Shown in pieces: positions 10,163 through 14,238 of a stretch of 49,122 nucleotides of DNA. Position numbers and translations under genes: made by a program. The notes under the pieces were generated by a model that saw only the letters and a program-made list of their open reading frames with translations, was not told the DNA's origin and ran no database searches. The stretch comes from Spirochaetia bacterium (GTDB lineage Bacteria > Spirochaetota > Leptospiria > Turneriellales > JAOUFE01). Location: the NCBI GenBank assembly GCA_029857955.1, contig JAOUFY010000014.1, positions 1 through 49,122 on the forward strand. Direction: 5' to 3'. The first letter of the stretch is position 1, and the number at the start of each line of letters is the position of its first letter.

Positions 10163-11416
10163 ATGCAATTAACAGGCTTAAAATATGGACGAAAAATTCT
10201 CGAGATGGTTGAATTTCCGGTATCACCGAGTTTAACAGAAGAGGCATCAATTGAAGATATCTCAAAACTCATGGCTGCACACGGCGGTAAATGTGTCGTT
10301 AAACCTTTTTTTACAGGCGGTATTGGTAAAAAAGGAAAAGCTGGTCTTGTTAAAATTGCAAAAAGCGTTCATGAAGCTATTGCTGCAAAACAAGAACTTT
10401 ATTTTGCAAAACATCATCAGGGTAATCATACGGTACAGGCAAACGGTGTTACATTTGAAGGATTTATTCCATCGGATGCTGAAATATACGTAAGCATTAC
10501 ATCATCGACCATTCATAGACAACCAGTCATGACCATCATTGTTGAGGGAGGAGTCGATGTTGAAGAAGTTTCTCCTGACAAGAAAAAAGAAATTGTATTT
10601 AATCCTGTTACTGGCGTTAAATCATTTCATATCATTGATGCGCTTCGTGAACTAAACTGCCCTCAGGAGTACATAAGCCCTCTTGTTCAGCATCTGCCAA
10701 AACTATGGCAGGCCTATGATACCTACGGTCTCATAACACTTGAATTAAATCCAATTCGTATGCAGTCAAAAGGCGGTCGTTTTACGCCGGTTGCCTGCGA
10801 TATTAAAGCATCATTTGATCAGGACAATCCAGGTTGGAAGCGTATGAGTTTTCCAGAGGAAATATTTTCGACAGATATAACAGACTTTGAGGCAGAAATA
10901 AACTTACTTAGAACCTACCAGGGACAAAGTGATGTAACCGAGTTAAACCCGGAGGGTACCATTCTTCCTTTTATATTTGGAGGCGGAGCAAATTCGGCAG
11001 CAACTGAAATTCTTGGGCAAAAAGCCATTATATCATCTGACTTTGGCGGAAACCCTCCATATGCAAAAATGAAATCAATTGCAGATATATCATTTAAACA
11101 TTGGCTGGCAAAAACAAACGTTGTACTATTAATTGGCGGAAAGGCTAACAACACAGATATTTTTGTTACTTTTAAGGGTATTTTTGATTCATTAAAAGAG
11201 CACATTCATCTTAATCCAAATGTTCAAGTTGTTGTAGGCCGTGGCGGTCCAAATCTCATTCGTGGCATGGTCTATGCCCGTGATGTTTTAGATAACCTGA
11301 AAGTACCCTATAGATTTTTTGGTTTTGACAGTTCCATGGTGGGTGTTTTAGAGCATGCTTTAAAACTTGATGACTGGATCATTGACAACCAGAAATCAGG
11401 TAGAGCTGCAGGATAA
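10163..11416 (+). CDS. aclA: ATP-citrate lyase, small (ATP-grasp) subunit
   Basis: Supplies the ATP-grasp part of ATP-citrate lyase: it activates citrate with ATP so that the large subunit can form citryl-CoA and split it to acetyl-CoA and oxaloacetate. Length 417 aa matches AclA. Recognisable stretches are the ATP-grasp start (KCVVKPFFTGGIGKKGKAGL), the metal site LITLELNPIRM, and the C-terminal citrate-binding half (FIFGGGANSAATEILG, LLIGGKANNTDIFVTFKG, VVVGRGGPNLIRGM). A strong ribosome binding site and more balanced codon use than its neighbours suggest high expression. The large subunit follows 77 bases later. Succinyl-CoA synthetase is ruled out by the C-terminal half and the partner. 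Confidence 0.9.
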   Translation: MQLTGLKYGRKILEMVEFPVSPSLTEEASIEDISKLMAAHGGKCVVKPFFTGGIGKKGKAGLVKIAKSVHEAIAAKQELYFAKHHQGNHTVQANGVTFEGFIPSDAEIYVSITSSTIHRQPVMTIIVEGGVDVEEVSPDKKKEIVFNPVTGVKSFHIIDALRELNCPQEYISPLVQHLPKLWQAYDTYGLITLELNPIRMQSKGGRFTPVACDIKASFDQDNPGWKRMSFPEEIFSTDITDFEAEINLLRTYQGQSDVTELNPEGTILPFIFGGGANSAATEILGQKAIISSDFGGNPPYAKMKSIADISFKHWLAKTNVVLLIGGKANNTDIFVTFKGIFDSLKEHIHLNPNVQVVVGRGGPNLIRGMVYARDVLDNLKVPYRFFGFDSSMVGVLEHALKLDDWIIDNQKSGRAAG

Positions 11417-11493: not shown

Positions 11494-14238
11494 ATGAAAG
11501 AAAATAATAGAAATAATAAGAGTCCTTTTCCCTATTTTGTTGGAGCAAAGTCACTGGTTGATTTAGCAAATAAAGACTCTAAAGTCGTTGTTATGAACAT
11601 TTTAGGCGGTGAAAGTTCTAAAGTAACGCCAGTATCTCATATTTACAGCAGCGGAAACGTTGTTGCCGGCGTTCAATACGGCAGGGCTGGTGAGGTACTT
11701 GAAACTCCAATTGGTAATATTCCTGTTTATGGCAGCGTTTCTGATATTGTTGAGCATGGCATTAAGTTTGATACTGGAGTAATTTATTTACCTCCAAATG
11801 CAGTATCACATGCCGTATCTGAACTTTGTGCTGGCAATGAACATTTAAAACAAATTGTTATTGTAACTGAAAAAATGTCTGTGCGTGATTCTCGTTACAT
11901 ACGTTGGGGTTGCCAGAGAAGGGGAGTTGATGTAATCGGCGCAAACTCTCTTGGTGTGGCAAATTCATGGGACAGAGTTCGTATTGGCGGGGCTCTTGGC
12001 GGCGATAAGCCAGGCGAATCTCTTGTTAAAGGCAGTGTAGCTATTCATTCAAATTCAGGAAACTTCAGTACAACTATTTCTGAGTACATTAAAACAGCAG
12101 GTTTTGGTACATCTACCATAGTTTCCAGCGGTAAAGACGTTTACATACATTTTGCCTTGCCAGAATTTTTATATGCAGCAGAAAATGACCCAAGAACCAA
12201 GGCTGTTATTGTGTATGTAGAACCAGGCGGATATTATGAACAACAAGCCCTTGAATGGATAGAACAGGGATTGTACCCGTTTACCAAACCAATCATTGCT
12301 GTAGTAACCGGAAGATGGAAGAAAAACCTGACAAGATCAGTAGGTCATGCAGGTGCACTTTCAGGTGTCGGGGACGATGCCATTGCTAAAGAACAAATTT
12401 TTGACAAGTATTTTGGTGTACCGGAATATGATCCTAAAAAACCAAAGGTTTCAAAACGCGGTGTTCGTGTGCAAACCATTCAGCAAATTCCCGAAGCACT
12501 TGCTGAAGTAATGAAAATGCTGGGGCATAAATCTGACTTTGAACCAATTGGCGATTTAAGTTTGAAACCGTGGTTTGTAAACCATCAAGGTTTGCATTTT
12601 CCTAAAGAACTTAATATAGAATCTGTAAAAGCGATGTCTCCGTATGACAAGGAAATTGACGAAGCCAACCATATGGTGGGCGCTCAATATTTACGTCAAA
12701 CGATGAGAAATGCATCCGGCGCAACACGAATGAACAAAAAAACCGATGTAACTGAAATACATGGTAAATCGCTTTTAGACCTTGTCAGTGAAGATTTTGG
12801 CGCATCAAGCTTATTTGCTGTTCTTAGAGATATGCCAAGCGCAAACCAGATGCACATTGTAACTCCGGTTTTAAACTGGCTAACCTCAGAAGGAACTAAA
12901 TATAATGATTTTGCGGTTGAATCGCGTAAAAATGGAGCAACCCCAAATGCTTATATCGGCGCATGTGTATTGATGTCGGGTAACAATGAAATGTATAAAG
13001 CATTTCAGCAAAATACTAAAATTTTAATAGATTTATTTTACGTAGATATTGGTCATAAACTGGATATTGAAGATGATTTAATATCAAAAAAACTGGTTGA
13101 AGTTAAAGATCTTGCCAAATCAGCTACCGGACCAAATGATCAAAAAGTTTATGATCATTTAATGATTGTTATGAAAAAACATTCACTAGAAAATATTTTT
13201 ACGCGTTTTGTGAATGCCTATGTCGAAAAAAACGGCGATAAAGGCGGAGTAAACTCTTTACACCTTATGGTTGTAGCGATTTTACTGGGAGTTTCCTGGA
13301 AGGCTTTAACTGATCGAAGAATTTCGCGAAGTGATGCAGAAAATTTAGGCGTTTATCTGGCGATTAACGGAATCATCGTTGCCAATTCCGTTATTGACAG
13401 AGATAAAAATAAATTCTGGAATGATATGAAATCACTTAAAGATGGTAAAACTCTCGATACAAATTACACCGAAAGTTGTTTTAAAATATTGTTTAACAGG
13501 GCGCCGGAAAAAAATGAATTGTTTGCATTAAATTCGCTTTTTAATTTAACAATAACAAACGGCCCGGGAACCTTAAGCGCTAAAGGAGCCAAAGAAAGCG
13601 TTAGTGCTAAAAATTATATTTCAACTACATTTGCAGGGTTTATGATGAACACCGGTCTTGCACATGGCGGAAATGGATTCGAAGCCATTGCATTTTTAAT
13701 CAGCAAGTTAGATAAGCTTGATCCATATGCAAAGCCGATAAAAGAAATATCAGGTGATCTTGAGAAGCTTGCGGCAACTGTTGCCAGCGATTATTTAAAG
13801 TATAAAAAAGTAGAAAAAGCCAAGGGCAATCTGCAGTACGATAAAATACCATGTACCAATCACCCTGTATTTAAAGGCAAACCGGTTAACGTAGATCCAA
13901 GAGAAGAGTATGTACGTGAATTGTTTGAAAAACATAAAATTGTCAATCCTTTCCTTGAATTTTACCATTATCTGGTTGTTGAACTGCATAAAGTCGGCGC
14001 AACAGATAATGTATTTTGCGTAAATATCGATGCGGTAATTGCAACGGTTTCTCTCGAACTTTTCTGGAAACAGTTTAAAAGCGGCGAAATTAAAGAAGAT
14101 GCTATGAAAGATCTTGTATTTACAATGTTCTTGTTTGGACGAATGGTAGGTACAGCAGCTGAAGTCGCAGATCATTTAAATCGTGGAACCGATATGGATT
14201 GTCGAACTCCGGCTTCTGAGGTTCAATTTGTAACCTGA
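11494..14238 (+). CDS. aclB: ATP-citrate lyase, large subunit with duplicated citrate-synthase-like domain
   Basis: Residues 1-350 form the CoA-binding/ligase part, with the phospho-His loop GHAGALSG (H285). The C-terminal part should cleave citryl-CoA. Length is 914 aa against about 600 for the usual AclB. The excess is explained by two related stretches: copy A about 424-640 and copy B about 645-905. Pairs at matching offsets are SLFAVLRDMP/CFKILFNRAP (438/661), KKHSLENIFTRF/EKHKIVNPFLEF (561/811) and RSDAENLGVYLAINGIIVA/KEDAMKDLVFTMFLFGRMV (612/867). Copy B keeps H790 (TNHPVF) and D846 (VNIDAV), but the first catalytic His of the HGP motif is N689 (NGPGT). Copy A lacks the Asp. A good ribosome binding site (AAAGAGG) precedes it. 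Confidence 0.85.
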   Translation: MKENNRNNKSPFPYFVGAKSLVDLANKDSKVVVMNILGGESSKVTPVSHIYSSGNVVAGVQYGRAGEVLETPIGNIPVYGSVSDIVEHGIKFDTGVIYLPPNAVSHAVSELCAGNEHLKQIVIVTEKMSVRDSRYIRWGCQRRGVDVIGANSLGVANSWDRVRIGGALGGDKPGESLVKGSVAIHSNSGNFSTTISEYIKTAGFGTSTIVSSGKDVYIHFALPEFLYAAENDPRTKAVIVYVEPGGYYEQQALEWIEQGLYPFTKPIIAVVTGRWKKNLTRSVGHAGALSGVGDDAIAKEQIFDKYFGVPEYDPKKPKVSKRGVRVQTIQQIPEALAEVMKMLGHKSDFEPIGDLSLKPWFVNHQGLHFPKELNIESVKAMSPYDKEIDEANHMVGAQYLRQTMRNASGATRMNKKTDVTEIHGKSLLDLVSEDFGASSLFAVLRDMPSANQMHIVTPVLNWLTSEGTKYNDFAVESRKNGATPNAYIGACVLMSGNNEMYKAFQQNTKILIDLFYVDIGHKLDIEDDLISKKLVEVKDLAKSATGPNDQKVYDHLMIVMKKHSLENIFTRFVNAYVEKNGDKGGVNSLHLMVVAILLGVSWKALTDRRISRSDAENLGVYLAINGIIVANSVIDRDKNKFWNDMKSLKDGKTLDTNYTESCFKILFNRAPEKNELFALNSLFNLTITNGPGTLSAKGAKESVSAKNYISTTFAGFMMNTGLAHGGNGFEAIAFLISKLDKLDPYAKPIKEISGDLEKLAATVASDYLKYKKVEKAKGNLQYDKIPCTNHPVFKGKPVNVDPREEYVRELFEKHKIVNPFLEFYHYLVVELHKVGATDNVFCVNIDAVIATVSLELFWKQFKSGEIKEDAMKDLVFTMFLFGRMVGTAAEVADHLNRGTDMDCRTPASEVQFVT

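Follow-up and report, generated by a model that had tools for sequence, protein, structure and literature searches.

A spirochaete type II ATP-citrate lyase with two tandem citryl-CoA-lyase modules in its large subunit, one of them catalytically depleted

We analysed a 49,122-nucleotide stretch of a Spirochaetia bacterium genome (hereafter the window) and found that an open reading frame at 11494-14238 encodes the 914-residue large (alpha/AclA-type) subunit of a predicted type II ATP-citrate lyase (ACL), in which two citryl-CoA-lyase modules follow one another in tandem. All features described below lie on the forward strand. Taken as a whole, the reading that we regard as probable is that the second module (copy B) would act as the lyase, that the first (copy A) would play a structural role, and that both descend from one ancient duplication.

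The reading frame is intact, and the segment 12764-14238, which the first-pass annotation had described, corresponds to its residues 424-914. Residues 20-340 (11551-12513) form an acyl-CoA-synthetase domain similar to the alpha subunit of succinyl-CoA synthetase (SCS), which is recognised by the Pfam families Succ_CoA_lig and CoA_binding and whose closest relative in the PDB is the small subunit of citryl-CoA synthetase (6hxq, E 5.9e-36). The GHAGA motif of this domain contains H285 (12346-12348), which is a histidine in 21 of 21 homologues and corresponds to H760, the phospho-histidine of human ACLY (PMC10115795). The adjacent gene (10163-11416) encodes a 417-residue small (beta/AclB-type) subunit with an ATP-grasp domain (Pfam ATP-grasp_2, 6.7e-16) and a citrate-binding domain (PF16114, 2.6e-15). 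With the SCS-alpha-like domain and its phospho-histidine, the adjacent ATP-grasp/citrate-binding partner and a C-terminal lyase module, the locus has the parts of an ATP-citrate lyase. Because of the domains of both subunits and the invariant phospho-histidine, the two genes are predicted to encode a heteromeric ATP-citrate lyase, and the large subunit, initially named AclB, is AclA or alpha under the usual naming. In searches with the 914-residue protein, Pfam gave no match beyond residue 291, and NCBIfam gave a weak citryl-CoA lyase match at residues 657-906 (2.9e-10). Since the solved large subunits of type I ACLs measure about 617 residues (6hxj_B), a type I chain having about 610, the chain is indeed some 300 residues longer than expected, as had been noticed from the sequence.

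Copy A occupies residues 412-655 (12727-13458) and copy B residues 656-914 (13459-14235). When profiles of the two copies, built from 18 sequences each, were compared, they aligned over 202 columns with a probability of 97% (P=2e-11), at an offset of 223 at the start that rose to ~256, in agreement with the tandem modules and the offsets claimed at first. This comparison scored 79.4, whereas the highest score among 60 column shuffles was 20.6 and a reversed profile scored 12.7; the shuffles ruled out a chance repeat. In addition, copy A aligned with a single-copy form of ~690 residues (hhalign, P=2.3e-12). In the phylogenetic tree, in which long branches make the position of citrate synthase unsure, all of the copies A formed one clade (support 100/99) and all of the copies B another (99/98), and the two main sub-branches of these clades contained identical loci. 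Because the A and B clades have matching sub-branches, the two modules appear to be derived from a single ancient tandem duplication that predated the split of the lineages. The assembly that contains the window is fragmented (139 contigs), and the 914-residue frame, with its doubled lyase module, might be suspected of being an artefact of assembly or gene fusion; however, an equal architecture of 899-914 residues is present at 18 loci in three phylum-level groups, including complete plasmids, which refutes this explanation and leaves it a negligible probability.

The 18 long homologues come from spirochaete genomes, SAR324/Lambdaproteobacteria and proteobacterial plasmids (of Microvirga, Sinorhizobium, Paraburkholderia and Caballeronia). 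A strict-pattern scan of contigs had returned only 4 loci, and the homologues were therefore sampled from genome searches and plasmids. A shorter form, represented by three spirochaete AclA-like proteins of ~690 residues (L059, 136-2202; L060, 1471-3543; and L061), possesses a single lyase module with the same Asn-His-His-Asp signature as copy B and 39% identity to it, and is without ~225 residues at the place where the long form carries copy A. These three proteins are naturally occurring one-module forms with which type II ACL can be compared.

Primers for type II ACL genes, acl2F1 and acl2R1, have been published (PMC3522073). The reverse complement of acl2R1 encodes NGFEAIA, which has exactly one match in the window (13672-13692), with none expected by chance, while acl2F1 encodes VAKEEWF, whose counterpart reads AKEQIF in the 914-residue protein and AKE.WF in its relatives. 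Because both primer motifs are present, the protein and its group are assigned, from their sequences, to type II ACL, an already named but little studied class that is known from tubeworm symbionts (PMC3522073) and Thioflavicoccus (PMC6315080). The primer motifs, the two-subunit operon and the sequence group are shared with the enzymes of those organisms, and no difference from them was found. The naming of type II ACL was reportedly tentative in the 2011 review by Huegler and Sievert. We found no mention of a spirochaete member in either of two papers on type II ACL (PMC3522073, PMC6315080), and no solved structure of any enzyme in the group. Nor did we find a published description of the doubled module or of the Asn-His-His-Asp set in literature that included neither the 2011 naming review nor the 2019 ACL structure paper; such an absence is not proof of novelty. 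The distinct ACL architecture that had been proposed is therefore distinct relative to the solved ACLs, but it is common to a whole group that already bears the name type II.

Type II ACL genes were also observed on large plasmids of rhizobia and of Paraburkholderia and Caballeronia (L036-L040; NZ_CP016617.1, NZ_CP137017.1, NZ_AP028999.1, NZ_CP071131.1 and NZ_CP029232.1), where they are annotated at best as CoA-binding protein. Those on the Paraburkholderia and Caballeronia plasmids adjoin genes for an MFS transporter and dctA, neighbours that hint at a role in citrate or dicarboxylate use, not autotrophy. Besides an intact copy, NZ_CP016617.1 contains pieces of a second, apparently broken large-subunit gene (1138216-1138407 and 1140373-1140750), and one SAR324-group genome (G090) carries two type II large-subunit genes (L052 and L054).

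The type I heteromeric ACL of Chlorobium limicola (6hxj) and human ACLY have in common with the present enzyme a phospho-histidine synthetase domain, a citrate-binding small subunit and a C-terminal lyase module. However, type I ACL has a single lyase module of ~270 residues with the residue set His-Phe-His-Asp, whereas the 914-residue protein has two modules and the set Asn-His-His-Asp, with NGPG and HGGN instead of DHGP and FGGA; in citryl-CoA lyase and citrate synthase the set is His-His-His-Asp. The citryl-CoA lyase of Hydrogenobacter thermophilus (6hxp) is the best PDB relative of both copies and shares the AHGG histidine with copy B, but it is a separate single-module protein that has retained the DHG histidine.

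Copy B was aligned with the PDB profile of 6hxp (4.7e-6), which placed the catalytic histidine at H724, and with citrate synthase (hhalign, P 1e-6, 202 columns). In the profile alignment to the citrate synthase of the same genome, the His-His-Asp triad falls on H724 of LAHGGNG (13663-13665; HGGAN in citrate synthase and AHGG in citryl-CoA lyase), H790 of NHPVF (13861-13863; GFGHRVY in citrate synthase) and D846 of NIDA (14029-14031; NVDF in citrate synthase, equivalent to D1026 of human ACLY). H724 and H790 are histidines in 21 of 21 proteins, and D846 is an aspartate in each of the 18 long forms and in both short forms that reach the position, the third being cut off. At the position of H724, type I ACLs, both human and Chlorobium, have a phenylalanine. 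These alignments indicate that copy B possesses a complete citrate-synthase-like catalytic triad.

N689 (13558-13560), in the motif NGP, aligns with the DHG histidine of citryl-CoA lyase (6hxp) and with the HADHE histidine of citrate synthase, and the histidine at this position in citrate synthase binds oxaloacetate. The residue is an asparagine in all 18 long and all 3 short homologues, which means that it is no accident of one gene. The first-pass annotation had taken N689 to replace a catalytic histidine and had proposed a search for homologues of about 900 residues to inspect this column; the search bore out the substitution, but the residue lost appears to be a different histidine and not the key catalytic one, which the alignments to 6hxp and to citrate synthase place elsewhere, at H724. 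The histidine and aspartate that it had credited to copy B are retained as H790 and D846. The same annotation had also envisaged an enzyme that stops at citryl-CoA, its lyase site being broken by N689, which does replace a histidine present in citryl-CoA lyase and type I ACL. This outcome is highly improbable, because the triad H724-H790-D846 is intact and invariant and because no stand-alone citryl-CoA lyase (CCL) was found by the CCL profile in the organism's own genome (G000, ~94% complete) or in three relatives. In each of these four genomes, the profile matched only a citrate-synthase-sized protein (citrate synthase itself in the own genome) and the ACL protein. Moreover, a functioning reductive TCA cycle has been reported, from genomic, proteomic, enzymatic and isotopic data, for the Riftia symbiont, whose ACL is of type II (PMC3522073).

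Structures were predicted with AlphaFold (AF2) from 14-16 sequences, with plasmid-derived rows left out. The model of residues 345-914 had a pLDDT of 82 and a pTM of 0.82, and that of copy A alone a pLDDT of 90.3 and a pTM of 0.90. The best 22 PDB fold matches of the copy A model were all citryl-CoA lyases or ACL lyase modules, with 6hxp first, and although these matches were moderate (TM ~0.5, nearly full length, rmsd 6-8 A), the predicted structure agrees with the fold anticipated for this segment; a search of a viral structure library, which served only as a negative control, gave no match. Copy A has no histidine at the HGG or HPVF positions, and its counterpart of D846 is H590 (13261-13263). 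It had been noted that copy A lacks the catalytic aspartate, which is correct for this protein, but because an aspartate is found in 9 of the 18 homologues the loss is lineage-specific.

To compare the constraints on the two copies, we used the same 18 sequences. Mean column identity was 47% in copy A vs. 64% in copy B, and 7 vs. 52 columns were invariant. For the pair L057/L058, omega was 0.14 in copy A and 0.05 in copy B, values that are rough because synonymous sites are near saturation. These comparisons suggest that copy A is under purifying selection, looser than that on copy B, and the confident fold together with this selection ruled out a dead remnant. Because the fold is kept while the histidines are gone, copy A is most likely a structural pseudo-protomer or scaffold, and the earlier suggestion that one copy is structural is plausible for this module. 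Alternatively, copy A might not be only structural and might provide a loading or allosteric CoA site, by analogy with the lyase domain of human ACLY, which has been argued to load CoA and unload acetyl-CoA allosterically (PMC10115795). Such a site would fit the purifying selection on copy A and the aspartate equivalent retained in half of the homologues; however, it is unlikely given how few columns of copy A are invariant in comparison with copy B and the absence of a histidine at either catalytic position.

Under the preferred reading, with copy B as the lyase and copy A as a structural module, the small subunit and the N-terminal synthetase domain would phosphorylate citrate via H285 and form citryl-CoA. 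Copy B would then be the working lyase module, with the triad H724-H790-D846 and an asparagine replacing the oxaloacetate-binding histidine, and the enzyme would yield acetyl-CoA and oxaloacetate. The lyase core of type I ACL is homotetrameric (PMC10115795); copy A would act as a built-in pseudo-protomer that replaces one subunit of such a core, and two large chains would together give four lyase modules. For human ACLY, it has been argued that cleavage itself takes place in the synthetase domain (PMC10115795), and if this is so, the copy B triad may be less important than supposed here. The site of citryl-CoA cleavage in human ACLY is disputed between the lyase module and the synthetase domain, and type II ACL provides a natural contrast, in which a full-triad module and a copy without catalytic histidines sit in one chain, so that one copy can be mutated with the other untouched.

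The type II group is relevant, too, to the evolution of citrate synthase from single lyase modules. For the model comprising both copies, the fold search gave whole citrate synthase chains as the best matches (target-normalised TM up to 0.68). In addition, the match of the CCL profile to citrate synthase consists of two segments with ~116 residues between them at profile position 52/53, and this is the point at which type II ACL has its extra ~225 residues. These observations favour the idea that the two-module half is related to the way in which citrate synthase evolved, and that a single duplication could underlie both citrate synthase and type II ACL. However, the fold matches to citrate synthase had a high rmsd, and the middle segment of citrate synthase scored 11.1 against copy A, below the shuffle maximum of 15.5, so that homology of the two at the sequence level was rejected. 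Because the insert has no detectable relation to copy A in sequence, a shared duplication is unlikely. A bolder proposal is that type II ACL has preserved an intermediate stage from the emergence of citrate synthase, that is, a fused citryl-CoA-lyase pair in which copy A became structural and copy B kept a citrate-synthase-type triad lost in type I, the N-terminal part of citrate synthase being an eroded remnant of the same duplication; we consider this decidedly unlikely. Citrate synthase and the 914-residue protein share the positions of the triad and the insert point in the module, but the insert sequences are unrelated at a detectable level. The Pfam citrate synthase family (PF00285) gave no match to the 914-residue protein, and the true citrate synthase of this genome is encoded by a separate gene (at C107).

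With regard to the metabolic context, one pyruvate:ferredoxin-oxidoreductase-sized protein and no RuBisCO were found in the organism's own genome (~94% complete). A ferredoxin-oxidoreductase gene of KorA size (583 residues) was found in the sister genome (G001) and not in the own genome, whose missing 6% may contain it. Because of this gene in the sister genome, a reductive TCA cycle is possible in the organism, judging from its gene content. Genomes with type II ACL can be missed in searches for this cycle, because Pfam is blind to the lyase half and the plasmid copies are labelled 'CoA-binding protein'. We also observed, in other genomes, neighbouring pairs of single-domain citryl-CoA-lyase-like genes of ~300 and 345-375 residues (L065-L068; G125:C129:595-1305 and 1569-2327, G114:C75, G289:C45 and G223:C17). 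In the ~300-residue gene of these pairs the NVD motif reads NM[IV]GAGN, and one of the partners may be non-catalytic.
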